A DNA stretch of 26,256 nucleotides, from positions 1 through 26,256 of the IMG/VR virus record IMGVR_UViG_3300028114_000083. One strand, given 5' to 3'. Made by a program: the position numbers and the translations under genes. The notes under the pieces are model-generated. The model made no database searches. It was not told the origin of the DNA and saw only the letters and a program-made list of their open reading frames with translations. This DNA comes from a virus. Within the stretch, counting starts at the first letter, position 1; each line of letters begins with the position of its first letter. This document shows, in pieces, positions 13,201 to 25,582 of the stretch.

Positions 13201-14891
13201 TTTACTTGCCCAGGCTTATATCCTCCCGCTAAAGCTCCATAAATTTCTGATAATGCAAAATTAGGTATAAATCCAGAACTTTTTGTTGTTATTTGGCCCT
13301 TGCTAACACCTACTCCTTTTCCTAAAAGACCAGTTGTAACAGAATTGGATAATGTTGTTGCTTGAGCCCTTAAAGCATTTTGTTCTTGTAAAATTCTTAA
13401 TATTTTAGTTTCAACATCTAATACGGTAATTTGCTTGCTATTAATTGCGGCTAAAAGTTCAGGTTCTCTTAGTAAAACTTCATTAATTTTAGATTGAAGT
13501 TGAGCACGAATTGCTGTTTGATCATTAATTCCCAATAAAGCTTTTACTCCAGAGCCAGCAAATTTAGCTAAGTCTAAAGATAATTTTCCTATAACAGCAG
13601 TAATTAAAACTATGCCTGGCCCAGATATAAAAGTAGATAATCCCTTAAGTATTCCTCCTCCAAGTTTTGCGCCAACGCCTTCAGAATCTTGATTATTAAT
13701 AGCTTCTAATAATTTATTAACATTTTTTAATGTGCCTTCTATAGCTGGTTGAAGCGCTCCAGATCCAACCGTTGATCCAATTTGAGTAACATTTTGTAAT
13801 GTAGCGTTAAATAACGAAGATAAAGTTTGATTTAATGCTTCGTTTCTTTTTATAGCTTCATTTGTTGAGCTGGCAGAAGTTTGTAAAGCTCTATCATATA
13901 CAGAATATTCTTTTCCTAAATCTCCTAAAGCAGCTTTTAATACGTTTATTTGAAACACGCCACCGACAAGTTCTCCAGTTTGAGATTTTTGAGAATCACT
14001 TAGTCCGTCAAATGTTGAAGCTAATTCTTTTAATATTGAAATAGCAGGTAAAGTATTTCCTTCTAAATCTCTAACGTTTAATCCCAAAGACTGTAATTGA
14101 TCTAACACTTCTGTTCTTTGAATTCTTGTAAAAATTGTTTTTAAAGAATTTCCAATAACTGCTCCACCTCGCGCTGTTGTTTGTTGCACACTGGTTACAA
14201 TACCAATTAATTCATCAAATCCAACGCCAGCATCTTGAGCAGAACTTCCTACTCGCTGTAATGCTTTAACTAAATCGCCAGAACTTACAGCAAACGCGGC
14301 ATCAACATTAGCTAATTTATTAACAATGCCTGTAGAGTCTAACGCTGTTTTATTAAAACTGTTTATTGTGGCGGTAAGAGCCTCAACTGCACTATTTGCA
14401 TCTAAACCGCTTAAGCGAGTCAAAATTAACGCATCGCTTGTTCTTTTTAGTGTTTCTTCTACTCCAAGACCTTGACGAGCTAATTCTGTTGCTGCTACTG
14501 CGACGGTTTGAAATGATTGTCCTGTATTCTTAGCTATATCAAATAAAGTATTTCCGAACTTGGTTAATCCTTCTGTGCTTGTATTTAATATAACATTTAT
14601 ATCTGCTAAAGATTTTTGTACATCAATTGAGCTTTTAATTAGGTCTATAAAAGCCTTTTCTACAGTATATATCAATCCTGCACTAGCTCCGAACGCAATA
14701 ACGCGAGCATTGGAAGCATCTAATGATTTTTGAAATTCATTTGCTGCACCAGTGATTCTACCTAAAGGTTGGGTAAAGGCTTTTTCATTCAATCCCTTCA
14801 ATTTAAAGTCTTTAGATAAAGCGCTTTGAATATCTCTTTCAAGTTGCCTTGTATCCGCACCTATTGAAATTATGCCACCTGTTCTAGCCAT
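7215..14891 (-). CDS. Tail tape measure protein, TP901-like core with G-F-x-P-N-F modules
   Basis: This 2558-residue protein is by far the longest in the window. The N-terminal ~350 residues match the TP901-type tape measure core (S-L-A-D-I-N-V-I-L near residue 77, T-A-T-I-N-S-F-N, G-G-A-V-I-G-N-S-L-K-T-I-F). Helical and low-hydrophobicity segments follow, with hydrophobic Gly/Ala stretches near residues 420, 1180 and 2280 that could insert in the host membrane. Four G-F-I/V-P-N-F-A/S motifs lie near residues 538, 620, 892 and 966. Two C-terminal repeats of the D-D-V-P-A-M-L..G-E-Y-V type lie near 2051 and 2414, typical of tape measure ends. The start is firm, with AAGGAG shortly before the ATG. 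At about 1.5 angstrom per residue a fully helical ruler would be near 380 nm, but inserted modules make this an upper bound. No muramidase or peptidase domain was recognised. Confidence 0.9.
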   Translation of the reverse strand: MARTGGIISIGADTRQLERDIQSALSKDFKLKGLNEKAFTQPLGRITGAANEFQKSLDASNARVIAFGASAGLIYTVEKAFIDLIKSSIDVQKSLADINVILNTSTEGLTKFGNTLFDIAKNTGQSFQTVAVAATELARQGLGVEETLKRTSDALILTRLSGLDANSAVEALTATINSFNKTALDSTGIVNKLANVDAAFAVSSGDLVKALQRVGSSAQDAGVGFDELIGIVTSVQQTTARGGAVIGNSLKTIFTRIQRTEVLDQLQSLGLNVRDLEGNTLPAISILKELASTFDGLSDSQKSQTGELVGGVFQINVLKAALGDLGKEYSVYDRALQTSASSTNEAIKRNEALNQTLSSLFNATLQNVTQIGSTVGSGALQPAIEGTLKNVNKLLEAINNQDSEGVGAKLGGGILKGLSTFISGPGIVLITAVIGKLSLDLAKFAGSGVKALLGINDQTAIRAQLQSKINEVLLREPELLAAINSKQITVLDVETKILRILQEQNALRAQATTLSNSVTTGLLGKGVGVSKGQITTKSSGFIPNFALSEIYGALAGGYKPGQVKEMNMPGSGRIIYNSAETIKKFPGMTQPAIMPPERSNAGKNYAQAFQSKLGFNPYASDGFIPNFSMQGIARQNYLQQSGSKQGLVMIRQTEVDAAQKAGIQIFMKTGIPFINKVDRNKLTLAFKKFEEGSAADRAAAIKQEKGVAGFANRSGAAKYGVVFPSFGQNAVGESAGYAGEGKNRKAYRFKTFPFPSNNFDINEKLYDDVRKNLIDISANYFRGGLTKPQIVDTNRFKTNIESNLSRSAVEASVGQIFEAGIKSSISSLSLSEIANFDLDAGELGKIRSRFKLPYEFSGTSFADLKNSLSAGNLNSMAAKIDKYENPSKKSKALGFVPNFSALQEAVSREVSAGVPKSKIRVDQSNKLIASANPLGLGVYNTQDEPFGLQQGISSKKSIQQAKTSGAFSSGFIPNFALQKFTTVGSGVGGSPINIIEPAQKEAVVAIQQLIRSVFAGKITLDDANKELTKLTNQYRLIDAAGGKVESQLIKASQLNQKLNIETEALVVQSSSLLRGRKALTELEGRAAVGGTRGEIARTGLERAQNARAQALSRLQNVGIGLSIGAPIAAQTIAQFNPQSKVAAGAAEGIGTAASFAGLGALFGAPGIAIGALVGSAIGLKKAFDIINSRADEFSRQAQKSGNDLARFSEDVQAFLISKGQAQGLRSGEIKGTGAELQRVEKNQAKSLAKIFNSAGPEITNQIKDALESGNEETLREALGRATVAKESAKSIDDFTSSVVRLKGEGKLKDTFDENISAFSRLRTRSGDTFAELVINNEKLMQSLTGYANAVELVSFTTSKGLKDLEDSSKGFQDNFGFNVSKIENGPKSVMSTGALPFSQEDISKRVKELERSAKYVSTEPSLGDELNSLLDPVKALPKGVGRDFATKSEETKKQIASQVLASELAAKNLQNFNEELNVFVDGLVESKDVTKKNGADIKDTFKMILDGDGDPKTKIQKIIEEFKNLGSQGELVAQTLQNIRDKLFNFSQLSQNLNQLFTPGNGTESGDLVASEKRQAALNNLKSGNFQDLFRDNSFKDTQINSILGKTVQETLGKIAAGTVDEEKRKEEAVKFQQEFVKQLDAMTNAGVPYEIALAKISAAAERTAISSSISSTNLGDLAKNISSASLREDTLNRYREIEIGLRKQYGDDTAGLAKAAEAAKLGLLGVAQAAEGRTSRKDLNSIALSKAQADMGAGAFQGLDLRQMGKTNKIDLQEIVKNTGAQTINAINEGIFDPETKKKLIDQAIIQQEKMISKINEGSVTTRDISDYKNKNQTIQNSSALLQNGFDRLNQSVYTASAREDAKSALAEQLRKLEDEYKGNLEALNRVAPLLANKLAAIAGAKEGSVFADELRSAGEAERTARIREKKFKGSDPFAAFSEEMTYGTQDMARDVNSTFVDTARTMKSEFNNAFQSVIDGTKSVDDAFRTMALNIANKIQQLALEMATNSIFNSLFSSIGGVPALFKSPLGAATGGMIVGNTVQRFSSGGRVLGGSGIKDDVPAMLSKGEYVVKKSAVSRYGEPFLRKLNEGGLIGMASGGFASYNPSEQQIDSMTASSNIEPLIVNGKEVQGRVVKKEMIKEFQSTIKNLISGKDLSFSDQNSTLESFSDVFGGGLAAELGNVYTYNDDLFPTGGSNILNPMLSDLARTDPNNPQTKIIEDKRNRLIDYLSEAIGIYYNNRDSAVETIRNNLENRSRIDEINKQNKDNYNKQMKNTFFGGLMSAGMAIGGGLLGQFIQGNGLFGPNSPRDAGTSGLNLGNSGRLSTSAAKGASSAYGSNLQSPSARLNTPSTSQVSNLNPYVGTTARLNYTPPTMSQYNNAKVYGAGLGQIGGGGNPYSVYNRANGGIIGFAKGGSTGKDDVPAMLMGGEYVIKKDSVSRYGKKFFDNVNSGKVRKFAEGGMVDDGNASQGFSSQSETTKNGDTSNNINISINIDQNGNSTEEKNNNTSGSQNSGFDRMKNEKDAKALSEKIKTEVVKIITEQQRPGGMLSSSVYKKVK
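11965..13283 (-). repeat. Four G-F-I/V-P-N-F modules in the tape measure gene
   Basis: Motif copies are encoded near 13280, 13035, 12218 and 11995, at about residues 538, 620, 892 and 966. Two of them share an identical 20-bp DNA block (13261-13280 and 11971-11990) encoding S-S-G-F-I-P-N-F. The stretches between are dissimilar in length and sequence, so the motif acts as a boundary repeat between different modules, not as part of a uniform array. Confidence 0.8.
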
Positions 14892-14910: not shown

Positions 14911-14917
14911 ATTACAC
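14911..14917 (-). promoter_or_regulatory. GTGTAAT motif upstream of tape measure gene (candidate late promoter)
   Basis: GTGTAAT reads on the - strand in the 70-bp gap before the tape measure gene. The ATG lies 19 nt further on. The segment between holds ATTATAG and then the Shine-Dalgarno AAGGAG, so a start of transcription 6-8 nt after the motif would keep the ribosome site. It is one of six identical copies, all in gaps upstream of - strand genes. A promoter role is inferred. Confidence 0.6.
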
Positions 14918-14933
14918 AATATTTAATATTTAT

Positions 14934-14950
14934 GATAGCTTTAAGCTATC
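14934..14950 (-). other. Perfect 7-bp hairpin between chaperone-like gene and tape measure gene
   Basis: GATAGCT and AGCTATC are separated by a 3-base loop. The hairpin lies 12 bp after the stop of the 333-residue gene and just before the GTGTAAT motif of the tape measure gene. No run of U follows on the - strand, so a classical intrinsic terminator is doubtful. It may be a weak terminator, a 3'-end stabiliser or a processing site. Confidence 0.4.
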
Positions 14951-14961
14951 TTATTATAGTT

Positions 14962-15963
14962 TTACTCCCCATGTAACTTCATAAGATCTTCCATAGTTAA
15001 TACTCCACCTTTTTTCTCTGCAACGTCATGTAATGACACAACATTTTTATCTGCACCAATTTTAGCTAAATCTTCTTTTTTAGCGCCAATAATTGAAGTA
15101 GATACTGTTCCATCAGTTTTTTGAGTATCATTCTTTTCTATCATTTCATCCGCATTTTTACCAGTTTCTAGCCATTCTATAAGCTTATCTGGATCATTAT
15201 AATAATCTTCTGGTGGAGAATGTTTAGAATTAGATACTATATTTTTAAAGTACCTAGCAAAACTAAATATTTCCATTTGATAAAAAGTCAAATCTATAAT
15301 AGGTTTTCCATATAGATAATATGGATTTTCTGGGCTTAAATTAAATAGATTAAGATAAAAAGAAGATAATGCAATTTTCTTTAAATTTTGTTCTGAAAAT
15401 TTTATATTAACTTTATTGTAAATAAATACTAATTTTGTTATATCAAAGTTCTCAAGCTCTTCAAACTCTTCTTGAGAAAAAAACTTTTCATTTAAATTTA
15501 CATCCTTATATACGGATATAAACATAAAATATTCATTTATTTTTTTATTCGCATAGTCTTCTACTGTAAAGCCTAATAACTCAGCAAATTCAAGCAATAG
15601 AGCTTTTAAATCTTTTTCTTCTTTTTCTATAGATTTATTTATATATTTGATATCTTCAATTTTAAATACTTTGTTTTTTGTTTGTTTTAGGGAAGAGATA
15701 TTTTTTTTAATCTTGTCTATTTTTTCGTTCTTTTCTAAAGACCAAAGATTTTCTTTGATCAAGTACTTCTCTTTTTCTTTTTTGGTGGGCAAACCGCTTT
15801 CTATGGCTTTTTTTTCAAAATCTTGCTTTTTATAATCTATATCACCTGAATTAATTGCAGTATTATGCTTTATATATAAGTTATGCTTTTCATAATTAGT
15901 TTTAGAAAAACCCTTTAATATATCTATAAAAGTAAGCTTTAAATTACTTTCACTGTTTTCCAA
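14962..15963 (-). CDS. Unrecognised protein upstream of tape measure (tail assembly chaperone position), TTG start
   Basis: This protein of about 333 residues is very Lys/Glu/Asn-rich, with a likely coiled-coil region (about residues 45-125, many K-E-K and K-K repeats). A central helical part has a Tyr/Phe-rich patch (L-S-P-E-N-P-Y-Y-L-Y-G), and the C-terminus is acidic (L-T-M-E-D-L-M-K-L-H-G-E). I do not recognise the family. Its position just before the tape measure gene is where siphoviruses encode tail assembly chaperones (lambda G/GT). The frame opens right after a TAA at 15964-15966, and the first codon is TTG. There is no in-frame ATG until about residue 147, so TTG (weak GTGGGG upstream) is the only reasonable start. 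The upstream 260-residue gene is in the same frame, separated by two TAA stops. Confidence 0.7.
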   Translation of the reverse strand: MENSESNLKLTFIDILKGFSKTNYEKHNLYIKHNTAINSGDIDYKKQDFEKKAIESGLPTKKEKEKYLIKENLWSLEKNEKIDKIKKNISSLKQTKNKVFKIEDIKYINKSIEKEEKDLKALLLEFAELLGFTVEDYANKKINEYFMFISVYKDVNLNEKFFSQEEFEELENFDITKLVFIYNKVNIKFSEQNLKKIALSSFYLNLFNLSPENPYYLYGKPIIDLTFYQMEIFSFARYFKNIVSNSKHSPPEDYYNDPDKLIEWLETGKNADEMIEKNDTQKTDGTVSTSIIGAKKEDLAKIGADKNVVSLHDVAEKKGGVLTMEDLMKLHGE

Positions 15964-15999
15964 TTAAATTACCCCACTTTCTTTATTGGGTTTTTTAAC

Positions 16000-16782
16000 T
16001 TATGGTTTAACTTCTTCTGAATTAGGAGCGTTTTTAGGGTCTGTTGCAATCATATTCAGAAGCTTCTCAAACTCTTCTTGGCTTGAGGCTCGACCAGTAT
16101 ACCAAAAACTTATAAGATAGATTAATTTAGCTAACGCTTGTTTTTCCCAAGAATTTTCTGGACCGTCTTCTATAGAGTCGTATGCCGAGAGCTTATCTTC
16201 AAAAGTCGTCCCGCTAAATAAATTTTCATATGTCTTATCTTTATTTTCTAATAAACTAAGCTGAAGAACCCACCACATTATAGTTTTATTTCTTGCTCTA
16301 TTCTCTGCAGTTTGATCAAATAGACTTGCTTGAGCAAACTCATAGTCTTGAAGCTTTTCTTTATTTTTTGATATCTCTCTTAATAAATTTTTATAATTGC
16401 TACGCTCTTCTTCTGTTCTTGAGGCTTCTTCCTTTAATGAAAGTTTTTGGAATTGGGTTTGTATATCAAATAAAGATACATACAATTTAGTATATTCTTC
16501 TTTATCTAATTCACTGAAAATACCACCATCATTACTGAACCTTTTAGCTAGTAAAGCTCTTGTAAGTAATCCAGCCTTGATACCTTCTGATAATTTTACT
16601 CCATAAAACAGTTCGGCTTCATCGAATAAGCTTCTGGTTGGCTTTTTGATTGCTAATTTAGCAGGTACATTTTTCTTTACTTTTTTAGTGATCTTGACTT
16701 CTTCATTCTTTTCATTTTTTGATATTTCTACTTCGTCAATCTCTTCTTCTTTATTTATTTCAAATCCAAACATTATTTTCAT
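16000..16782 (-). CDS. Unrecognised protein, possible tail assembly chaperone
   Basis: This 260-residue protein has a charged, probably disordered N-terminus (about residues 9-45, alternating Glu/Lys) and a helical body (R-S-L-F-D-E-A-E-L-F-Y-G-V-K-L). The middle is Trp- and Leu-rich (M-W-W-V-L-Q-L-S-L-L), and the tail is acidic. I cannot assign a family. Its place between the tube gene and the tape measure, in tandem with the 333-residue gene, matches the usual location of chaperones that coat the tape measure before tube polymerisation. The start is supported by GGAG eight bases upstream and an ATGA overlap with the gene before it. No slippery heptamer with a continuing frame was found, so a lambda-type G/GT frameshift product is not indicated. 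Confidence 0.75.
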   Translation of the reverse strand: MKIMFGFEINKEEEIDEVEISKNEKNEEVKITKKVKKNVPAKLAIKKPTRSLFDEAELFYGVKLSEGIKAGLLTRALLAKRFSNDGGIFSELDKEEYTKLYVSLFDIQTQFQKLSLKEEASRTEEERSNYKNLLREISKNKEKLQDYEFAQASLFDQTAENRARNKTIMWWVLQLSLLENKDKTYENLFSGTTFEDKLSAYDSIEDGPENSWEKQALAKLIYLISFWYTGRASSQEEFEKLLNMIATDPKNAPNSEEVKP

Positions 16783-17054
16783 ATTTTTTCTCCATTATTT
16801 TCAATTAAATTATTTAAATAGTCTTTTATTTTACCATAATAAACAACGCCGCCAATTGTTTTAATAAATTTATGTTTTTTTTCATTATCCCAATTTTTAT
16901 AATTTTTGATAAAGTTAATTTTTTTTAAGGCGATTAAATCTGGCTTTAAGATTCCAAAGTTATCCTTTAAACTTTTTTGTATGCTTTGCACAGAAAGATT
17001 ACCTTCGATTATTTCATCTATAGAAAAATTATAATTTAATCTTTTGGATTTCAT
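16779..17054 (-). CDS. Small unrecognised protein in the tail assembly cluster
   Basis: This 91-residue basic protein (N-terminal M-K-S-K-R-L-N-Y) has no signal peptide, membrane segment or cysteine. It lies in a row of genes linked by ATGA overlaps at both ends (17051-17054 and 16779-16782), so it is co-translated with its neighbours. No Shine-Dalgarno is visible before its ATG, in keeping with coupling to the 74-residue gene. Gene order (tube protein, small proteins, tape measure) suggests a role in tail assembly. No sequence motif confirms that. Confidence 0.65.
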   Translation of the reverse strand: MKSKRLNYNFSIDEIIEGNLSVQSIQKSLKDNFGILKPDLIALKKINFIKNYKNWDNEKKHKFIKTIGGVVYYGKIKDYLNNLIENNGEKI

Positions 17055-17275
17055 TTGAGTGTTATATTGATTTTGCTAAAGCCTTCTTCAATTTCTCTTA
17101 CTGCGTCATTAGCATTATCAAGAACTCTTTTGCGTATTTTTTGATAAGTTTCACTATTTATATTATAGCCAGAATCACTTAAATCTTCAAGAATAAAAAA
17201 GAAATTTTTATATATACTTGTGATTTTTCTCTTTATCTGAAAAAGAGTCATATCTTTTATAGGATCATTTTCCAT
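17051..17275 (-). CDS. Small unrecognised helical protein, first gene of chaperone cluster
   Basis: This 74-residue protein is probably all-helical and charged (M-T-L-F-Q-I-K-R-K-I-T near residue 9). Its ATG is preceded by AAAAGGCAAAAGATT, a reasonable Shine-Dalgarno. A GTGTAAT motif stands 41 nt upstream, immediately after the terminator of the tube gene, so this looks like the first gene of a four-gene unit (74, 91, 260 and 333 residues). The stop overlaps the next start as ATGA. No family is recognised. Confidence 0.65.
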   Translation of the reverse strand: MENDPIKDMTLFQIKRKITSIYKNFFFILEDLSDSGYNINSETYQKIRKRVLDNANDAVREIEEGFSKINITLK

Positions 17276-17316
17276 AATCTTTTGCCTTTTGACCTTAAAC
17301 CTTTAACCTAACATGT

Positions 17317-17323
17317 ATTACAC
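17317..17323 (-). promoter_or_regulatory. GTGTAAT motif after the tube-gene terminator (candidate late promoter)
   Basis: GTGTAAT on the - strand begins only four bases after the terminator hairpin and 41 nt before the ATG of the 74-residue gene. Its place between a terminator and the next gene is what a promoter restarting transcription would show. The sequence after it (ACATGTTAGG) leaves room for a leader carrying the AAAAGG ribosome site. Confidence 0.6.
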
Positions 17324-17326
17324 CAA

Positions 17327-17358
17327 AAAATAACCCCCGCTTACGCGAGGGTTATTTT
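17327..17358 (-). terminator. Strong rho-independent terminator after the major tail tube gene
   Basis: AAAATAACCC (17327-17336) pairs perfectly with GGGTTATTTT (17349-17358). An inner CGC/GCG stem closes a TTAC loop after one C/A mismatch. On the - strand the stem ends in six U residues, giving a classical intrinsic terminator 22 bp after the tube gene stop. On the + strand it also ends in a short U run, so it may act both ways. It isolates the tube gene from the four-gene unit that follows. Confidence 0.85.
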
Positions 17359-17379
17359 AATTTAACTTAGTTTAATTTA

Positions 17380-18531
17380 TTAGTTTCGACCACTAATAAA
17401 TATTCCGTTAGTCAAGTCTTGAGGACCACCAACTTGAGTACTGAATGTCAAACTAACGGTCTTATTACTGCCGATATCAGAGCTGAACTCTTGACTATCT
17501 AGTTTAGCACCTTTGAGCTTGAATTGAGCAACTGTTACTGTTGAGTCTGTTGGACTTTTGATTGTAATTGTTGGTGTATATGTTGCTCCATCAGCAAGAA
17601 CAGTTTGAGCTAGTGCACCTGTTTGTAGGTCTGTCATTTGAGCATCGACTTTAAGAGTTACAGTAAGTGGGAAGTTGATTTCGCGACTAAATGCAAATCT
17701 ACTTCCTAATTTTTCAATTGGAGTACGTCCTAAATCAAAACTCATCGTATAATTCTGTACATTCATTGTAGTGGCATCTGCTCCACCAGCGTTCGTATTA
17801 CTTATGGATAAACTAATATCTCCTGGTCGAAGAGCACTGATCCCACTAATATCTGTTGCATTACTAGAATTTTGTAAAGCTGTTGGTAATTGATAAAAAT
17901 TACTTAATGCTAATCCATTTGTTGGATTAATTGCTGGGGTATAATTTCCACTTGTACCTTTTTGGAAATTCATGTTCAATCCTTCAACATTAACTGTGAC
18001 TGTTGGGAAATTGCCAACTGAACCTTCTGTTGAATAGGATGTTAAAAACGCATTACCAATACCAATAACGCCGTTGTTAGCTATACCAGTATCAGCAAAC
18101 TCGACAGCATCAGAACCTTCTGAAACAGTTCTGATAAAGTAATTTCTTTCATCTTGTACTTTGTTTAAAATTCCAGAGATAGCGGAAACCTCACTAGGAG
18201 ATCCTGGAGTAGCAATTGAAAATCCTAATCCACTTTCATTTGCAAGATTTGCTAGTAAATAACTAAAATCAAGCGAAACAGTTGGACTGCTCAAGATAAC
18301 ACGGTCAATTGCAGCTAGTTGGCCAAATTGATTTACGTCAGTACGATCAACTTTGAAACTGTAATTTACAGTTTGGACTCTTTGAAGTTGTTTGACTAAG
18401 TTTGTAGCGTCACTACCGCTATTAAGACTTCCACCGACTCCAGCTGTGAATGTTCCATAATGAAAACCTGATGCGGGTGAGGGCCCAGCGTAAAGGGCTT
18501 CTGATTGATAAATTATTCTATTTCTAGGCAT
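17380..18531 (-). CDS. Probable major tail tube protein
   Basis: This 383-residue, Ser/Thr/Asn/Gly-rich, mostly beta protein has a tube-like pattern: V-N-Y-S-F-K-V-D-R-T-D-V-N-Q-F-G near residue 54, then S-P-T-V-S-L-D-F-S-Y-L. Its size and location (after neck genes, before assembly and tape measure genes) fit the major tail protein. It sits alone between a GTGTAAT motif upstream and a strong terminator downstream. Its GC content is visibly higher and its codon choice richer than those of neighbours. Both are expected of a highly expressed structural gene. GGAG lies about 13 bases before the ATG. The C-terminal ~110 residues (T-P-T-I-T-I-K-S-P-T-D-S-T-V-T) may be an extra surface domain. A minor decoration role is possible but less likely. 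Confidence 0.78.
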   Translation of the reverse strand: MPRNRIIYQSEALYAGPSPASGFHYGTFTAGVGGSLNSGSDATNLVKQLQRVQTVNYSFKVDRTDVNQFGQLAAIDRVILSSPTVSLDFSYLLANLANESGLGFSIATPGSPSEVSAISGILNKVQDERNYFIRTVSEGSDAVEFADTGIANNGVIGIGNAFLTSYSTEGSVGNFPTVTVNVEGLNMNFQKGTSGNYTPAINPTNGLALSNFYQLPTALQNSSNATDISGISALRPGDISLSISNTNAGGADATTMNVQNYTMSFDLGRTPIEKLGSRFAFSREINFPLTVTLKVDAQMTDLQTGALAQTVLADGATYTPTITIKSPTDSTVTVAQFKLKGAKLDSQEFSSDIGSNKTVSLTFSTQVGGPQDLTNGIFISGRN

Positions 18532-18555
18532 ATTATTTGTTCTCCATTTGTAGTT

Positions 18556-18562
18556 ATTACAC
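18556..18562 (-). promoter_or_regulatory. GTGTAAT motif upstream of major tail tube gene (candidate late promoter)
   Basis: GTGTAAT on the - strand lies 24 nt before the ATG, in a 56-bp gap. A-rich sequence precedes it (AAAAAAATAAAAATC), as in an UP element. ATGGAGAACA, holding the Shine-Dalgarno, follows. A transcript starting 6-8 nt after the motif would have a short leader that keeps the ribosome site. Together with the terminator downstream it defines a one-gene unit. Confidence 0.65.
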
Positions 18563-18587
18563 CGATTTTTAGTAGATTTTTATTTTT

Positions 18588-19457
18588 TTATTGCCTTGGG
18601 TATCTATTTTTTATTATCTCAAAATCAACAAAAGCAGAATATACATTTCTATTTAAACTGTTTGTAGTATTTACTAATCTAGTATCAGTTTTAGATACAG
18701 TAACGTCATTAACATATACATAATCTGAATCTGCTATTTTATTTTTAGTATGCCCAGTATAATCAAAACATTTATTTGGAGTAGATATAGAGCCTAGAGA
18801 GTTAAATGGCATTTCATTAGGGTATATTAATGGTATTAATTGCCTAGAAGTATCTCTCATTATGCTTGTTACAGCGTCCAAATTATATACATTATCAGCT
18901 AATATTATAGCCCTAATATTACCTACTGTTTGGTCTAATCCACCAAAAGCCAAGGGTTTATTTCTGCCTCCTTGATATTTTAAATATATAACAGGATAAG
19001 TTTCAGCATTTATAGGCAGACCAGTTGGGTTTTGATATGTTCTAGGATTAATTTGATAAGAGGTTTCAAATAATACATTTTCTTCACTTTTGCTAGTTAA
19101 AAACATATTGAAATCTTTAACAGCATAATCTGCACTTAAAGAAGTGCTAGGGTTAGGTATACTTTGGCTAAAATATAATTGACCTTCTTGAGCGTTAATG
19201 CCACTTAATCCGCTTTGACCAACAGTTATAAAATTTCCATTTAAATATACGCCACTTATAATATCAGCCCCACTTATAGAACAGTCAATAACCATTTGTT
19301 TAAATGGCGCTCCATAAGTATAATATCCATGATACATATTGTTGACTTCGTAAAATGAGCTAGTATGATTTGTAAAAGCTTCGCCTTTAGTTAGTACTTT
19401 ATTATCCAACCAAAGCAACATATTCGTCATTAAAATATTGTCAAATTGCGGTATCAT
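18588..19457 (-). CDS. Neck/tail structural protein, possible tail terminator
   Basis: This 289-residue protein appears to be mainly beta (V-Y-L-N-G-N-F-I-T-V, D-Y-V-Y-V-N-D-V-T-V-S) and carries no signal peptide, coiled coil or catalytic motif. I do not recognise the family with certainty. It lies between the completion-like gene and the major tail tube gene, the slot occupied by the tail terminator in lambda-like phages. Its length is larger than a typical terminator, so a fusion with a decoration domain is possible. Its ATG overlaps the upstream stop (ATGA, 19454-19457) and is preceded by AAAGGA, so both coupling and a direct ribosome site are available. Confidence 0.7.
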   Translation of the reverse strand: MIPQFDNILMTNMLLWLDNKVLTKGEAFTNHTSSFYEVNNMYHGYYTYGAPFKQMVIDCSISGADIISGVYLNGNFITVGQSGLSGINAQEGQLYFSQSIPNPSTSLSADYAVKDFNMFLTSKSEENVLFETSYQINPRTYQNPTGLPINAETYPVIYLKYQGGRNKPLAFGGLDQTVGNIRAIILADNVYNLDAVTSIMRDTSRQLIPLIYPNEMPFNSLGSISTPNKCFDYTGHTKNKIADSDYVYVNDVTVSKTDTRLVNTTNSLNRNVYSAFVDFEIIKNRYPRQ

Positions 19458-20044
19458 TTTAATCCTTTCACAAAATTACGATAAAGTTCAGACATATATG
19501 ATATCGATCTGTAAGCAGTGCTTCTAATTTTATTTTTAGATTGAATGCCTCTACCAGATCTGCTATTTTTAAATAATACGCCGTAAACATAATAACCAAA
19601 TCCAGAAATTCCATCTTCCACTCCCTTTACCCAACTTCTTCCTTTTTCAAAAGGAAGAGGCGTTTCTGATCTTATCTCCTCTAAAGACGGAGTATATACA
19701 TCATATTTTAATTCAAAAGTTTTTTTATCAAATTTTGGCTTCTTGCCTAAAAATGTATTTTGTTTGATTAATTTTTTTAAATCTTCAACTGGTTTATCTG
19801 TTTCATCAAATCCAATAAAAGCAAAAAGATTCTCTTGTCCATTTAATGTGTTACTTATATTTTCTCCGTCTGGTCCAGAGCTTAATTCTTTTGAAATTGG
19901 ATGATTTTCTATTTCTTGAATATAAAAATTTAAACTTTCATCTAAAACGTCTTTAGCGTATTCGATAGATTTTTGTTTAAACGCTTCTTCAAAAGCTGGA
20001 GATATTTCGTCTCGAATCTTTTTTATATCTATCTTGCTAGCCAT
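19454..20044 (-). CDS. Putative tail completion / HK97 gp10-like neck protein
   Basis: This 196-residue protein starts with a long charged helix (about residues 1-45). It ends with a Gly/Ser/Arg-rich loop (G-Y-Y-V-Y-G-V-L-F-K-N-S-R-S-G-R-G-I-Q) followed by a helix. That pattern is common in HK97 gp10-like proteins that join the tail to the neck. It lies directly after the stopper-like gene, as such proteins usually do. GGAG about 11 bases before the ATG supports the start, and TAATG links it to the previous stop. The assignment relies on layout and the S-R-S-G-R-G loop. Confidence 0.65.
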   Translation of the reverse strand: MASKIDIKKIRDEISPAFEEAFKQKSIEYAKDVLDESLNFYIQEIENHPISKELSSGPDGENISNTLNGQENLFAFIGFDETDKPVEDLKKLIKQNTFLGKKPKFDKKTFELKYDVYTPSLEEIRSETPLPFEKGRSWVKGVEDGISGFGYYVYGVLFKNSRSGRGIQSKNKIRSTAYRSISYMSELYRNFVKGLK

Positions 20045-20484
20045 TATTTTGTTTGCTCCAATCCATATATATAATAAAAATTATTTAAATACTCTTGGAT
20101 AGAGTCTTCTGTTATAACATTCCAAGTTTTTCCATCAAATTCTAATTTAATTGTTTTACCATTAGCAATAAAATCTCTTGCATTTTTTTTAACTTTTAAA
20201 GTAACATCTCCTCGAGCAAATACTATTTTTAAATCGCTATCGACTGCATCTGTGTCTCTAGCATTATTATAATTAATTCTTCCATTAAAAATCCCAGTCA
20301 CGGGCATATATGTATAATTCACTGAATCTGAACTAGATCCATATCCATAAAGTGGAGTGCTTTGTAGTTCTTGGATTACTTTAATTGGCTCTTTATGGAC
20401 GATAAAACTTCTAGAAAAATAATCAAAAAATTCATCGTATGCGTTAGAAAACTCTGCTGCTGTATTTGAATTTATAAAGCTCAT
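20044..20484 (-). CDS. Putative head closure (stopper-like) protein
   Basis: This 146-residue protein has an N-terminal helix (Y-D-E-F-F-D-Y-F) and a run of beta strands (P-V-T-G-I-F-N-G-R-I-N-Y, D-L-K-I-V-F-A-R-G-D-V-T-L-K-V, I-K-L-E-F-D-G-K-T-W-N-V). A small beta barrel ending in T-W-N-V-I-T-E resembles stopper proteins of the SPP1 gp16 kind. Size and order (adaptor-like gene before it, completion-like gene after it) agree. No Shine-Dalgarno is seen; the ATG follows the previous stop by 2 bases (TAATCATG), so reinitiation is likely. Confidence 0.6.
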   Translation of the reverse strand: MSFINSNTAAEFSNAYDEFFDYFSRSFIVHKEPIKVIQELQSTPLYGYGSSSDSVNYTYMPVTGIFNGRINYNNARDTDAVDSDLKIVFARGDVTLKVKKNARDFIANGKTIKLEFDGKTWNVITEDSIQEYLNNFYYIYGLEQTK

Positions 20485-20486
20485 GA

Positions 20487-20996
20487 TTATGCATTATATA
20501 TACTTCTTATTTTATATAATGAATTTTTATAATCAACATCATAATAACCTTCAATAAAGTCATCTCCTGCGACTTGCAATGGTCCAGAATTATTGTTTTT
20601 GTATTGAGATGTTAAAGTTTTTAATTCAGAATATTCTTCTTTTCTTATAGCGATGTAATTTTTAAGGACTTCGTTTTTATTAACTTTTTGAACTGTACTA
20701 CCGTCATCTTTAATAGAAACAAAATCAGAAGATGCCGAACTAGCGGTGCTTTTTATTTTAAGGTCAAAGTAGTATATAGAATACATTTTTTTGAATATAT
20801 ATTTTTCAATATCAGATAAATTTGGAGATATTTCAAAAGTTGAGCTATCTACTGAAAAACTAGCGTTAATCATATTATTCAATCCACCAATATTTCTTCT
20901 GACCCATGCGGCTATAGCTGCTATGCTAAAATCATCTGGTTCGCCCATTTCTTCATAAATCTCTTGGGCAATAGAGGTTACGGTATTTATAATCAT
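20487..20996 (-). CDS. Putative head-tail adaptor protein
   Basis: This 169-residue protein is helical at the N-terminus (I-A-A-I-A-A-W-V-R-R-N-I-G-G-L-N near residue 25) and in the middle (E-K-Y-I-F-K-K-M-Y-S-I-Y-Y). Its length and composition fit connector adaptors of the HK97 gp6 or SPP1 gp15 type, which sit under the portal. It is the first of four consecutive neck-type genes. A GTGTAAT motif lies only 7 nt before the ATG and no Shine-Dalgarno is visible, so the transcript may be leaderless. Fold-level assignment is inferred, with no catalytic residues to check. Confidence 0.62.
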   Translation of the reverse strand: MIINTVTSIAQEIYEEMGEPDDFSIAAIAAWVRRNIGGLNNMINASFSVDSSTFEISPNLSDIEKYIFKKMYSIYYFDLKIKSTASSASSDFVSIKDDGSTVQKVNKNEVLKNYIAIRKEEYSELKTLTSQYKNNNSGPLQVAGDDFIEGYYDVDYKNSLYKIRSIYNA

Positions 20997-21003
20997 ATCA
21001 TAA

Positions 21004-21010
21004 ATTACAC
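21004..21010 (-). promoter_or_regulatory. GTGTAAT motif 7 nt before adaptor-like gene (candidate leaderless promoter)
   Basis: GTGTAAT on the - strand is followed by TTATGAT and then the ATG at 20996. Upstream is TAAATAATTTAAA. There is no Shine-Dalgarno between motif and start. If transcription starts 6-8 nt after the motif, the mRNA begins at or next to the start codon. Confidence 0.55.
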
Positions 21011-21047
21011 TTTAAATTATTTAAATTTTAAAGTAAGATTATCAAGT

Positions 21048-21287
21048 TTAATACAATTTGCTTTTGATATATTCAACACAATCTATAAATTTATCTATTT
21101 GTAATTCTGATATACCATTTTCTTCTATTCTATTGACTAATGTTGCGTTACCAATCGGTCTAAGGTAAAAGCTTAAATGATATGCATTTTCAGCATATGC
21201 TATATTAATATCTTGTTTAACATAAGAAGCTGAACCATTTTCAGAGAATCCTAAAGAAAGTAAATGATTTTTGATATGATCGAACAT
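21048..21287 (-). CDS. Small unrecognised protein preceding the neck genes
   Basis: This 79-residue protein reads M-F-D-H-I-K-N-H-L-L-S-L-G-F at the start, with alternating strands (I-N-I-A-Y-A-E-N-A-Y-H-L-S-F-Y-L-R) in the middle and a C-terminal helix (Q-I-D-K-F-I-D-C-V-E-Y-I-K-S-K-L). This alpha-beta-alpha order is plausible for a small folded protein, but no family is recognised. It is flanked by GTGTAAT motifs on both sides, so it may be its own transcription unit. The ATG is only 7 nt after the upstream motif and has no clear Shine-Dalgarno apart from a short AAGG. Confidence 0.65.
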   Translation of the reverse strand: MFDHIKNHLLSLGFSENGSASYVKQDINIAYAENAYHLSFYLRPIGNATLVNRIEENGISELQIDKFIDCVEYIKSKLY

Positions 21288-21294
21288 ACCTTAT

Positions 21295-21301
21295 ATTACA
21301 C
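21295..21301 (-). promoter_or_regulatory. GTGTAAT motif 7 nt before the 79-residue gene (candidate leaderless promoter)
   Basis: The motif starts one base after the stop codon of the 1272-residue gene (TAAAGTGTAAT) and is followed by ATAAGGT and the ATG. The whole gap is 15 bp and is almost filled by the motif and a 7-base spacer. That makes a chance match less likely. Confidence 0.55.
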
Positions 21302-21302
21302 T

Positions 21303-24300
21303 TTATATACTAAATAATTTAAAATCATTTTTTAATTTTCCATCTAAACCCATCTTGCCTATAGAAACTCTTTCCTCTGGGTACATATCAAGAAATTCAC
21401 CATAGAAGAATATATCATTTCCAGAATAATTAACTCCGTTAACATATTGTCTTAACCATTGGGTTTCGAAACCTTGTCCTCTACCATAAAAATTAATAGT
21501 ATCCATATTAAGAGTAAAATCTTTTTGACATATTGGATCACCATTTGTTTTGTTAGTTATGGTTAAAAAAGCGTTTCTATTCATTAATCTATTCATATTT
21601 TCCCATCCTGGCGATTTGGTCTCTCTACTTACAACATATAATTTATTTTCATGAACCATAAATTCTTCGCCAGCACTTCCTTGACTAAAGGGTCCTCCAA
21701 TATTATCTGCATGCCCCCAAACTGAATCGGTTATACCACCAAAAGTTTTTAATAAAGCTCCTCCTGTAGCATCAACAAAATGAACTCCTCTATTGCCAGA
21801 GTTTTGATATAATTCCCAATGCTGTCCACAAAATCCTACCCCTGTGCCTGGAATAACTTTTACATCCTCTACGTAGTCATATGCATGAGCTGAATAATTA
21901 GAAACAACATAAGAACTTGGATTAGAATAATGCATTGTACTTGTATCAAAGGCTGGTATAGGAGTAAAATTAGTATAGATTGTTCCATTACTGGAATTTA
22001 CTGCGCATAATTTTCTTTTTGTAGTGACTCCTACTGTTGTAAAATTTCCACCAGCATATAAATAATCTCCGCTTATGTCTATTCCTCTAACGGTACTATT
22101 AAAATTCGGATTAAAATTAGCATCTAACGCTCCGTCTGATAATCTGACTTTCGCACATCTATTTCTTGTCAATCCGCCAACAAGACTGAAATCACCACCA
22201 ATATACATATGATCGCCACTTATTTTTATAAAAAGAACTGAATTATTTCCAATATTAGGATTAAAATTTGAATCCAAAGAATTAGTTTCTATATTGTACG
22301 CGGCTAATCTATTTCTTGTTATTCCGCCAACAGTTGTAAAAGAGCCTCCCATATACAACATGTTTCCACTTGTAGCTAATGCTAAACAACCCCCATTTAA
22401 ATTTGGATCAAAAGATGTTAAAAATGTATGAGGATTAGTTTTAATATCCCAAGCTGCTATACGATTTCTTGTTGCTGTAGTTGTAGAAGGTGGAACATTA
22501 CTTCTAACATTAGTAAAAAAGCCTCCTATATATAAAATTCCACTATTTTGATGAATATGCATAGATTGAACTGTGCTACTTGGATTTGGAGCAAAACCAG
22601 TATATAGTCTTCCGTTATTCAACTCGTAAGCTGCGCATTGTCTATCTAAACCAAAAGTATCTATTTGATTCCAAGTAGCTCCACCAACATAAAGCTTACC
22701 GCTGTATATATCCATACAAAGTAAATCGCTCATCATACTTGATCTTGGATATCTTTGCATCTCTGTTGTATTAAAATCAAAAACTGTTAAAGTATGAGCT
22801 TTGCCAGTGCCTAAATCTGCAAAAGTTCCAGCTACTAAAATTCCAGAAGGATGAACTTTTACTTTATTAGCATGTCTACTAAAAGCAGGAGTCCAATTTG
22901 TAATTCCTGAAGTATTTAAATCTATTGCTGCGCCTCTTGGTCTAGGTAAACCATTCACAGTATGAAATCGTCCAACAGCATACAAAATATTATTATCATA
23001 ATCAATATCTAATCCATAAACATGATCATCAAAATTAATATTTAAATCCGTAATTTGTTTTCTATGTATATCATAACAAAACAACCCACTTCTACTTAGA
23101 CCACTTACTTGACTGAAGTTTCCTCCAACATACAGAAGATTATCTTTTCTTTTCATAGAGCTAACAGCAACTGCATTTATATAAGGTGCTCTGCTTAAAA
23201 AATCTGTGCTAATTGGATCAGGAAATCTTTGCATATTCCAATTCAATCCATCTACGACTACATTTGTACCAGTATGAATACCAACGAATGCTTTGGTTGT
23301 AGAATTTGTTTTGTTGAAATTGCCACCTATATATAATATATCACCACTTTTTTCTAAACAATTAACATTTCTATCAACATCACTACCTAGAGCTGCATTA
23401 AACGATAAAGTGCTTTTGCCACTAATTAAATCTACTGCACCCACAGACGCACGACTGACTCCATTTATAAAATCAAATCTTCCGCCAATAAACATAGCGT
23501 TTGATCCTGTGTCTAAAAGCATTGCGCCTACAGTTCCTATATAAGAATTATAATCATGAATGTCTGGGCTCCAATCTGTTATTGAGTTAGTATTTAAGTC
23601 TATACAGGCAGCAAGAGTTCTTTCTTTAAATTGTTTATTGTTAAGACTTGAAACATGTTGATTATTAGGATAATATAGTATATTGTCTATGACTCTTTTA
23701 ATACGATTATTAGGTGAAACATTAGGTCCACCTCCATTACCATAAAAATCAAAACATCCATAAACATGCTTGCCACTTATTGTATCTATTACGATTGGTG
23801 AACCAAACCTTGTTCTTCCACTCAGCTGAGGATCACTAGAGAGATTTGCGCTAGTATTAAGGCTGTTATTATGAATTGGTGGACCAGAAAAAATTAATAA
23901 AAACTTACCATCTCCAAATTCTCTGCATCCATTAGTACCATAATCAGCTGTATTATATTTTCCACCTCCTATTGGAGCAAATTCGCTAATAAGATCTCCA
24001 TTCTCATAATCAAATTTAGCTAAATGTCGATATCTACTTCCTGAGCCTCTAGGATTTAAATTCCCCTGACTTGCGGATATATAAATTCCACTTTTTCCAA
24101 GTTCCATGTTTGCTTGATTTGTATTTTCTAAATTAGGATCCCAAGGTAAAAGATTAAAATTAAAATCACAAGCTGCTGCTCGATTTCTAGTTACGCCATT
24201 AACACTTGTGAAATTTCCAATAAAATATATTCGTTGTCTTTCATAATCTGGAACCGCCATGATCACGTTACTGTTGCAACTTTTTAAACCAGTTAATGCT

Positions 24301-25121
24301 ATTCCACTTATCACATCATGAGCAGTGATGCCACCTAAAACTCTGCCTCCATCTGTTGTGCTGAAGTTAGCGCCATAAAATACTATTCCTGTACCACCAC
24401 TAGGATATATTGATCCTGTTATAAAAAATGAACCATTTGAACTCAGATTATTAGATACCGTTCTGACGTGATTAAATTGAGTAATACTTGTATCTCTTTG
24501 ATCAAGAAAATATCCCATAGAATTTCTAGAGGGATCGTTTGTTAAAACCATTTTATTAACTTGTCTGAATCCAGGATTATTAATACTATTAGGAGGAGTA
24601 AAAGTGGATACATTATTTCCACCTCCTATCATAAATCCTGTTCTTTGATTAAGCATTAAAAATTGATGAACACTTTTTCCCCCGCCCATGGCCATAGCCC
24701 AACCAGTATTCAGACCACTACTAGTTATATTTACCATATGGCCATACCTAATTCTATTTGTTGTACTTCCGTCAGGAGTACCAACCTTGGGATTAGAAAC
24801 AAAAAATTGATTATTAGATCTATATTGACTTAAGGCAAGAACATAAGAGCCATCATCTAACTTCGTAATATCACTAATTCCAACTCCGTTATTATGAGCA
24901 AAATTATCAGTTTTAAAGTCGACAGGATTTGAAACAAATTCAATGCCACTACCAGAATAATTTAAAGCAATCATTGGACTAGGTAAATGAGCTCCAACTC
25001 CGCCAAATTGTCCTGCAACATAAAGAAGGTTATCTTTAATAACTGAATCATGTATAGGGCCGTTAAAAGCTCCTAAATTATTTATTTGATTTGTATCATC
25101 TGCAAAAAAAGAATTAAACAT
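21303..25121 (-). CDS. Giant delta-60 / DUF5122 beta-propeller repeat virion protein
   Basis: This 1272-residue protein is built largely of repeats of the form L-Y-I/V-G-G-N/D-F-x-x-V-x-G-x-T-R-N-R-x-A-A, followed by a strand and an N-F-N-P turn. This is the delta-60 / DUF5122 beta-propeller repeat. I count about twelve copies by eye, the most regular between about residues 850 and 1050; earlier copies are more diverged. The last ~200 residues do not follow the pattern. There is no signal peptide or membrane segment. Such propellers are usually secreted or surface adhesins in bacteria; here the structural neighbours suggest a fibre or capsid/neck decoration that binds a surface. It begins 5 bp after the previous stop with no Shine-Dalgarno (TAATATTTATG), so it should be translated by reinitiation. 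Confidence 0.8.
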   Translation of the reverse strand: MFNSFFADDTNQINNLGAFNGPIHDSVIKDNLLYVAGQFGGVGAHLPSPMIALNYSGSGIEFVSNPVDFKTDNFAHNNGVGISDITKLDDGSYVLALSQYRSNNQFFVSNPKVGTPDGSTTNRIRYGHMVNITSSGLNTGWAMAMGGGKSVHQFLMLNQRTGFMIGGGNNVSTFTPPNSINNPGFRQVNKMVLTNDPSRNSMGYFLDQRDTSITQFNHVRTVSNNLSSNGSFFITGSIYPSGGTGIVFYGANFSTTDGGRVLGGITAHDVISGIALTGLKSCNSNVIMAVPDYERQRIYFIGNFTSVNGVTRNRAAACDFNFNLLPWDPNLENTNQANMELGKSGIYISASQGNLNPRGSGSRYRHLAKFDYENGDLISEFAPIGGGKYNTADYGTNGCREFGDGKFLLIFSGPPIHNNSLNTSANLSSDPQLSGRTRFGSPIVIDTISGKHVYGCFDFYGNGGGPNVSPNNRIKRVIDNILYYPNNQHVSSLNNKQFKERTLAACIDLNTNSITDWSPDIHDYNSYIGTVGAMLLDTGSNAMFIGGRFDFINGVSRASVGAVDLISGKSTLSFNAALGSDVDRNVNCLEKSGDILYIGGNFNKTNSTTKAFVGIHTGTNVVVDGLNWNMQRFPDPISTDFLSRAPYINAVAVSSMKRKDNLLYVGGNFSQVSGLSRSGLFCYDIHRKQITDLNINFDDHVYGLDIDYDNNILYAVGRFHTVNGLPRPRGAAIDLNTSGITNWTPAFSRHANKVKVHPSGILVAGTFADLGTGKAHTLTVFDFNTTEMQRYPRSSMMSDLLCMDIYSGKLYVGGATWNQIDTFGLDRQCAAYELNNGRLYTGFAPNPSSTVQSMHIHQNSGILYIGGFFTNVRSNVPPSTTTATRNRIAAWDIKTNPHTFLTSFDPNLNGGCLALATSGNMLYMGGSFTTVGGITRNRLAAYNIETNSLDSNFNPNIGNNSVLFIKISGDHMYIGGDFSLVGGLTRNRCAKVRLSDGALDANFNPNFNSTVRGIDISGDYLYAGGNFTTVGVTTKRKLCAVNSSNGTIYTNFTPIPAFDTSTMHYSNPSSYVVSNYSAHAYDYVEDVKVIPGTGVGFCGQHWELYQNSGNRGVHFVDATGGALLKTFGGITDSVWGHADNIGGPFSQGSAGEEFMVHENKLYVVSRETKSPGWENMNRLMNRNAFLTITNKTNGDPICQKDFTLNMDTINFYGRGQGFETQWLRQYVNGVNYSGNDIFFYGEFLDMYPEERVSIGKMGLDGKLKNDFKLFSI
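21950..24240 (-). repeat. Tandem beta-propeller repeat units inside the 1272-residue gene
   Basis: Imperfect units of about 130-200 bp recur, each encoding a G-G-x-F strand, a T-R-N-R turn and an N-F-N-P-like turn. The DNA of neighbouring units is still similar: TTTCTTGT.A.TCCGCCAACA appears at about 22160 and 22310 on the + strand. That points to relatively recent duplication within the gene. Units towards 24200 and 23500 are more degenerate. Confidence 0.75.
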
Positions 25122-25126
25122 AAATA

Positions 25127-25567
25127 TTAATTAGCAAAATCTTTAATATAAGTTGTGTAAAATTTATTATCTAGTCTTAGAATATTAAATATATCAACTC
25201 TTCCAGAAACTTGAGTTAAAGTAGGAGATGCGCTTGCAGGAAATCTATAATTAGATCCAAATATCATATAATTATTTCCATAATTACTTTGAACTACTTT
25301 TACTAAAATACTATCTCCTTCTGGCAAATTTAAAGGATCATTTAAATTATTATATACTGTAGCAAAACCAGTTAATTGATAAACAAAATTTCTTCCAGAA
25401 GCATAATCTGGAGTGAACGTATTTCCAGTAAAATATACTATATTTTTTTGAAAATAAACTTCTTTTCCGCTAATTAATAAAGCTCCATTCATGGAGTCTC
25501 CAGTGGTATTGATATATCTAATATCTGCGTCTGTTTGATTAATGAAAATTGGATTGTTTAATATCAT
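25127..25567 (-). CDS. Fibre-like virion protein
   Basis: This 146-residue protein starts with I-N-Q-T-D-A-D-I-R-Y-I-N-T-T-G-D-S-M-N-G-A-L, a pattern recurring in the repeats of phage tail fibres. The rest is predicted to be beta-sandwich (L-P-E-G-D-S-I-L-V-K-V-V near the middle). It may be a short fibre or spike, or the attachment part of a fibre completed by a neighbour. It is followed 5 bp later by the beta-propeller gene, so both may form one adhesin complex. No Shine-Dalgarno is visible. A GTGTAAT motif lies 8 nt before the ATG. Confidence 0.7.
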   Translation of the reverse strand: MILNNPIFINQTDADIRYINTTGDSMNGALLISGKEVYFQKNIVYFTGNTFTPDYASGRNFVYQLTGFATVYNNLNDPLNLPEGDSILVKVVQSNYGNNYMIFGSNYRFPASASPTLTQVSGRVDIFNILRLDNKFYTTYIKDFAN

Positions 25568-25575
25568 ATAATATT

Positions 25576-25582
25576 ATTACAC
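25576..25582 (-). promoter_or_regulatory. GTGTAAT motif 8 nt before the fibre-like gene (candidate leaderless promoter)
   Basis: GTGTAAT on the - strand is followed by AATATTAT and the ATG. It lies in the 24-bp gap after the lectin-like gene. There is no ribosome site in between. Transcription starting 6-9 nt after the motif would give an mRNA that begins at the start codon. This unit would carry the fibre-like and beta-propeller genes. Confidence 0.55.

Follow-up and report, generated by a model that had tools for sequence, protein, structure and literature searches.

Genes and motif copies in the window

The window analysed here is the whole of a 26,256-bp virus record, which is itself a fragment. 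Its genes with a recognisable function are tail genes, namely those for tail tip, J-like and tape measure proteins. The features referred to below are listed by position.

7215..14891, minus strand: tail length tape measure protein of 2558 aa (assigned by matches to PHROG families of that function, the best at E = 1e-55)
14911..14917, minus strand: predicted GTGTAAT promoter driving the tape measure gene (7215-14891), with an RNA start predicted at ~14904 and a leader of ~13 nt that includes GAAGGAG
17317..17323, minus strand: predicted GTGTAAT promoter of a four-gene run whose first gene is 17051-17275; predicted RNA start ~17310, leader ~35 nt
17324..17358, minus strand: predicted intrinsic terminator abutting the 17317 promoter on its upstream side (fold -20.5 kcal/mol, z = -6.4; position from sequence)
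17380..18531, minus strand: putative major tail protein, 383 aa, named from its position
18556..18562, minus strand: predicted GTGTAAT promoter serving gene 17380-18531 (putative major tail protein); predicted RNA start ~18549, leader ~18 nt with GGAG
21004..21010, minus strand: predicted GTGTAAT promoter of gene 20487-20996; ATG 7 nt away, predicted leaderless
21295..21301, minus strand: predicted GTGTAAT promoter of gene 21048-21287; ATG 7 nt away, predicted leaderless; the site overlaps the gap that precedes gene 21303-25121
25576..25582, minus strand: predicted GTGTAAT promoter of gene 25127-25567; ATG 8 nt away, predicted leaderless

A total of six GTGTAAT copies were found when both strands of the window were scanned, all of them on the minus strand (plus-strand ATTACAC starting at 14911, 17317, 18556, 21004, 21295 and 25576), and no further copy occurs on either strand. 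These are exactly the six positions reported in an earlier note on this DNA, which had also seen the motif by eye nowhere else in the window. All six copies lie inside gaps between minus-strand genes, and the note's count of six motif-bearing gaps out of the seven longer than 10 bp was confirmed, whereas its estimate of roughly 320 bp of such gaps, about 1% of the window, had to be corrected to 365 bp and 1.4%.

The number of copies is ordinary by itself and not significant, as 3.28 would be expected in the window and at least six were reached in 12 of 100 shuffles. Their placement, unlike their number, is significantly beyond chance: in none of 2000 dinucleotide shuffles of the minus-minus gaps was any 7-mer common to more than five of them. 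Three of the six promoters predict leaders of only 1-2 nt, and the other three predict leaders of 13-35 nt with a Shine-Dalgarno-like sequence. As the window is only a 26 kb fragment, a wider test of the motif was run on related contigs.

The motif in related uncultured phage contigs

A search with the 383-aa putative major tail protein, which has no PHROG family match and no match among isolates, gave 56 loci in viral contigs at 36-88% identity, and at almost every one of these loci GTGTAAT stands upstream of genes. Whole or nearly whole related contigs of 50-162 kb were then fetched for comparison, all of the records compared being fragments, and their genes were called with a simple ATG-only method. 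Every large related contig examined showed the enrichment upstream of genes, relative to controls, that the note had proposed to look for. In the tabulated contigs GTGTAAT leads the upstream 7-mers or ranks near their top, with an enrichment of 38- to 1400-fold relative to the remaining sequence of the contig. Orthologous sites among those compared are not independent of one another.

The heptamer consensus in the clade is GTGTAA[T>A>G], with change tolerated at the last base only. Upstream enrichment is 203-fold for GTGTAAT, 33-fold for GTGTAAA and 26-fold for GTGTAAG, while single-base variants at the other positions are near background (GTATAAT, 2.4-fold). A literature search for GTGTAAT together with phage returned nothing relevant.

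The motif is retained at orthologues of the window genes. All 14 contigs compared have it 14-43 nt upstream of their tape measure gene, and the putative major tail protein gene is preceded by it in 45 of 53 cases, exactly 24 nt away in 36. Twelve of twelve orthologues of gene 17051-17275 have the motif at 26-41 nt and a Shine-Dalgarno-like sequence. For gene 20487-20996 the motif is found at 7-11 nt in 14 of 14 orthologues and a Shine-Dalgarno sequence in none of the 14; the three orthologues each of genes 21048-21287 and 25127-25567 have it at 7-8 nt and at 8 nt, respectively.

Orientation and absence of a -35 box

The motif is strongly oriented in the related contigs, with 86 plus-plus gaps holding a sense copy against 9 holding an antisense copy, and 152 against 9 among minus-minus gaps, and it falls to background level in convergent gaps. 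Divergent gaps often hold two back-to-back copies, commonly 9-10 nt apart; one such GTGTAA pair is found at G017:63339-63361 and similar sites occur elsewhere. Two polymerases could hardly bind both copies at once because of this short spacing, and the upstream DNA of each promoter is the transcribed region of the other, which would argue against a needed upstream site.

Neither a -35 element nor a conserved activator site was found in the pooled unique motif sites from related contigs (n = 162 and n = 247), so that the lack of a consistent -35 box seen by eye in the window holds for these larger sets. Beyond the motif, upstream conservation is limited to a weak AT-rich stretch between -8 and -3. 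An enriched upstream TTACAC was considered as a -35 or activator site and rejected, being the inverted motif of the divergent promoter pairs. In the window, the strong hairpin of the predicted terminator at 17324-17358, immediately upstream of the 17317 copy, also fits a promoter role. The pattern supports the view that GTGTAAT acts like a core promoter of the -10 type that has no -35 box.

Predicted RNA starts and leaders, and tmRNA genes

The distance from the motif to the ATG ranges from 3 to 68 nt, with 7-8 nt the commonest value (106 of 276 genes). Among unique sites, a Shine-Dalgarno sequence accompanies only 2 of 100 genes with the motif at most 12 nt away, against 43 of 50 with the motif at least 20 nt away; counted by protein family, the figures are 1 of 60 for the near and 10 of 22 for the far group (P = 3e-6). 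Taken together, the peak at 7-8 nt and the dependence of the Shine-Dalgarno sequence on distance indicate that RNA synthesis would begin roughly 7 nt past the motif, and leaderless late mRNAs are predicted. With the motif as a -10 element and such a start, the near group would be leaderless, leaving a Shine-Dalgarno sequence no space; with the motif as a -35 element, RNA would start within the near-group genes. Many messages thus appear to begin right at the start codon.

Six tmRNA genes were identified in clade contigs by ARAGORN, and both of the two examined with Rfam were confirmed.

L067:14722-15112, minus strand: tmRNA gene in G017
L085:3676-4080, minus strand: tmRNA gene in G032
L103:19044-19431: tmRNA gene
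L283:10560-10942: tmRNA gene
L291:17160-17547: tmRNA gene
L301:17255-17621: tmRNA gene

GTGTAA precedes four of the six, and in G032 the mature 5' end lies 7 nt past the last base of the heptamer. Since tmRNA is a non-coding RNA, this speaks against a purely translational role of the motif. In G017, G008 and G039 a sigma70-like promoter abuts GTGTAA, forming a possible double promoter. The clade tmRNAs also have unusual tag peptides, e.g. AKTAKYKGHISARASLVEMTASVA.

Gene classes and other promoter types

The distribution of promoter types along the 133.6-kb contig G017 follows its gene modules. Between 2 and 64 kb, where the portal and tail genes are located, 22 upstream GTGTAA[TAG] sites were counted against three sigma70-like promoters; the polymerase and helicase region (64-95 kb) has three against seven, and the region of ribonucleotide reductase, RIIA and small genes (95-133.6 kb) has six against 16. 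When all contigs are pooled, fewer of the motif-bearing gaps (17 of 173) than of the other gaps (140 of 469) contain a sigma70-like promoter (P = 5e-8). The motif is found mainly in virion modules and is mostly absent from replication modules, with sigma70-like promoters showing the reverse, although it also precedes some non-virion genes, e.g. PhoH-like and ferredoxin-like ones.

This is the layout expected for early genes under a host sigma and late genes under a phage sigma, and late timing is deduced from it. The proposal of a phage-specific late promoter made for the window accordingly extends to the clade as a putative -10-type core, lacking a -35 and concentrated in virion gene modules.

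Two other promoter-like classes were tabulated. The sigma70-like TTGAC-type promoters occur in 157 sense against 30 antisense gaps of the related contigs, and a further class, TAGA-N17..20-TATAAT, in 30 sense against three antisense gaps of G017 and other related contigs.

Candidate sigma factors

A search for sigma region 2 gave a match in 21 of 25 records, with two recurrent families, in agreement with the earlier suggestion that a phage sigma factor might be involved. One family is represented by a 227-aa protein (G017:17239-17922) whose gene lies beside the portal block and outside the window. Its region 2 match (E = 3e-4) is below Pfam's cut-off, and it contains a cysteine-rich insert and a conserved acidic/hydrophobic C-terminal tail. 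The structural model, of moderate confidence overall (mean pLDDT 70), has a region-4-type C-terminal helical domain at 148-220 that is itself confident, and fold searches with the model placed sigma factors among the best matches, none of them at E <= 0.001. A 149-aa protein with a possible zinc ribbon (L063:16790-17239, in G017) is encoded directly before the 227-aa sigma gene and overlaps it; its position is conserved and it is a possible partner of the sigma.

The second family, of about 200 aa (G017:102820-103449), is widespread in the clade. Neither family has a tblastn match at E 1e-3 among 50,697 isolate phage records.

The 227-aa sigma lies upstream of the portal gene in all five of the other large synteny contigs with that block. 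GTGTAAT is the top 7-mer around its homologues (113-fold) and is still enriched beside the two most distant of them, at 46% and 55% identity. Around the 200-aa loci GTGTAAT is 43-fold enriched and TATAATA gives a stronger signal. In G032 the 200-aa sigma is missing at its syntenic place, while the motif and the 227-aa sigma are both kept. The 227-aa sigma was not found in the large motif-bearing contigs G031 and G038, both of which are fragments that also lack the portal block.

The 227-aa sigma is favoured because of the contig lacking the 200-aa protein at its syntenic place and the enrichment around the 227-aa homologues. It is the best candidate for the reader of GTGTAAT, through a link that is correlational. 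G032 also encodes an RpoD-like 317-aa sigma (G032:117040-117993; L088:17040-17993 region) and an ECF-like sigma (94123-94743; L086:14123-14743).

Comparison with known promoter systems

The closest parallels are in mechanism and do not imply family membership: the GTGTAAT system would work like the late promoters of phiEco32 and T4. Middle and late promoters of phiEco32 consist of a single tAATGTAtA element with starts 6-8 bp downstream and are used by the host polymerase with the phage sigma gp36, which is said to lack region 4 (PMC8948821, PMC4331800). The points of likeness are one short strict element without a -35 and, in the proposed system, a phage-encoded sigma serving late genes. The start predicted here, ~7 nt downstream, would also be similar; it is derived from how far start codons lie from the motif, from the Shine-Dalgarno pattern and from the 5' end of one tmRNA. 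The element here is GTGTAA[TAG], not tAATGTAtA, and the 227-aa candidate, unlike gp36, keeps a region-4-like domain in its predicted model. Further differences are the lack of a tblastn match among isolates for the candidate, the larger genomes of the clade and the predicted leaderless late mRNAs.

In T4, late promoters consist of an 8-bp box roughly a helical turn away from the start, lack a -35, and are recognised through gp55 together with gp33 and the gp45 clamp (PMC2988020). The likeness to T4 drawn in the earlier note stands as to mechanism, i.e. a simple -10-type promoter without a -35 and, as a candidate, a phage sigma. It does not extend to the sequence, the conserved element being GTGTAA[TAG] and not an octamer of the TATAAATA type, the T4 TATA box. 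No gp55 homologue was identified, neither sigma having a tblastn match among isolate phages at E 1e-3. The candidate also differs in carrying its region-4-like part within one protein. A search for a phage DnaN clamp gave no DnaN family match, and the conserved acidic/hydrophobic tail of the 227-aa sigma is only suggestive of a clamp contact.

ECF sigma promoters combine a strict -10 such as GTT (Mtb SigH) with a -35 needed at fixed spacing (PMC6411747). The present system has in common with them its candidate two-domain sigma and a strict -10 element that opens with GT, but no conserved -35 at fixed spacing is seen at GTGTAAT sites. The late promoters of AR9 and phiKZ (AACA-N6-TA/G and TATG) are read by a phage multisubunit non-virion RNA polymerase (PMC5312081). 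They are likewise a phage-specific late class with its own consensus; GTGTAAT differs from both sequences, and the reader proposed here is of a different kind.

Proposed mechanism and alternative explanations

We consider it probable that GTGTAA[T/A/G] is the late core promoter of a large clade of uncultured tailed phages and is read via the 227-aa phage sigma. The motif would act as a -10-type element of the late genes, without a -35, and RNA synthesis would begin about 7 nt downstream. A start codon 7-8 nt from the motif would then give a leaderless mRNA, and one at least 20 nt away a leader with a Shine-Dalgarno sequence. Its most likely reader would be the host core RNA polymerase with the phage two-domain sigma (~227 aa) encoded beside the portal block. 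This explanation draws on sequence statistics, namely motif, orientation, gene class, distance logic and the presence of the sigma, from which the RNA start, late timing and recognition by the 227-aa protein are deduced. Counting against it, the 227-aa sigma has a region-4-like domain, yet no -35 is visible.

The same promoter could be read by the ~200-aa sigma (G017:102820-103449) or another phage sigma, and the wide occurrence of the 200-aa family and the enrichment of the motif at its loci are in keeping with this. We regard it as unlikely, given that G032 keeps the motif without the 200-aa protein at the syntenic place, that TATAATA outweighs GTGTAAT around the 200-aa loci and that a TAGA-N17..20-TATAAT class exists. 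Reading by host RNA polymerase with a host sigma and a phage activator, or by a modified polymerase, is quite unlikely. Activator-dependent late promoters are known, some phages have no late sigma of their own, and TGTAAT differs from TATAAT by one base; against this stand the slight enrichment of GTATAAT compared with GTGTAAT, the lack of a conserved activator site or -35 among the pooled sites, and the depletion of sigma70-like promoters in motif-bearing gaps.

Being located just 5' of start codons, the motif could instead act within the RNA, as a signal for the start of translation or for RNA processing. This is very improbable in view of the Shine-Dalgarno dependence on distance, and a translation signal in particular was rejected on the variable ATG distance and the motif before tmRNA genes. 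A chance or compositional artefact would suit the six copies in the window, which are within expectation, but is scarcely credible against the placement in gaps and the conservation across contigs; it was rejected on placement although the count alone is ordinary. A bolder extension of the preferred explanation is possible but doubtful: late transcription across a widespread clade of uncultured phages would be driven by a new family of phage sigmas that use a GTGTAA promoter lacking a -35, with most late mRNAs leaderless and the conserved acidic/hydrophobic tail of the sigma possibly binding the sliding clamp, as an independent, replication-coupled counterpart of T4 late transcription.

If the late promoter assignment is right, the 7-bp signal would provide a readable transcription code for phages known only from metagenomes, marking their virion genes and operons. 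It also raises the possibility that phage late genes are routinely translated from leaderless mRNAs. The pairing of a strict short promoter with a sigma family lacking a detectable isolate homologue would make the recognition rule directly testable in vitro.

Relatives of the clade

As for a possible host, only two genome contigs with the sigma were found, one of them in a Flavobacteriales MAG where the binning may be wrong. The J-like, tape measure, polymerase and portal proteins have distant isolate matches only. The DnaE-like DNA polymerase at L066:9511-12108 (G017:69511-72108), for instance, is just ~27-31% identical to its isolate matches.
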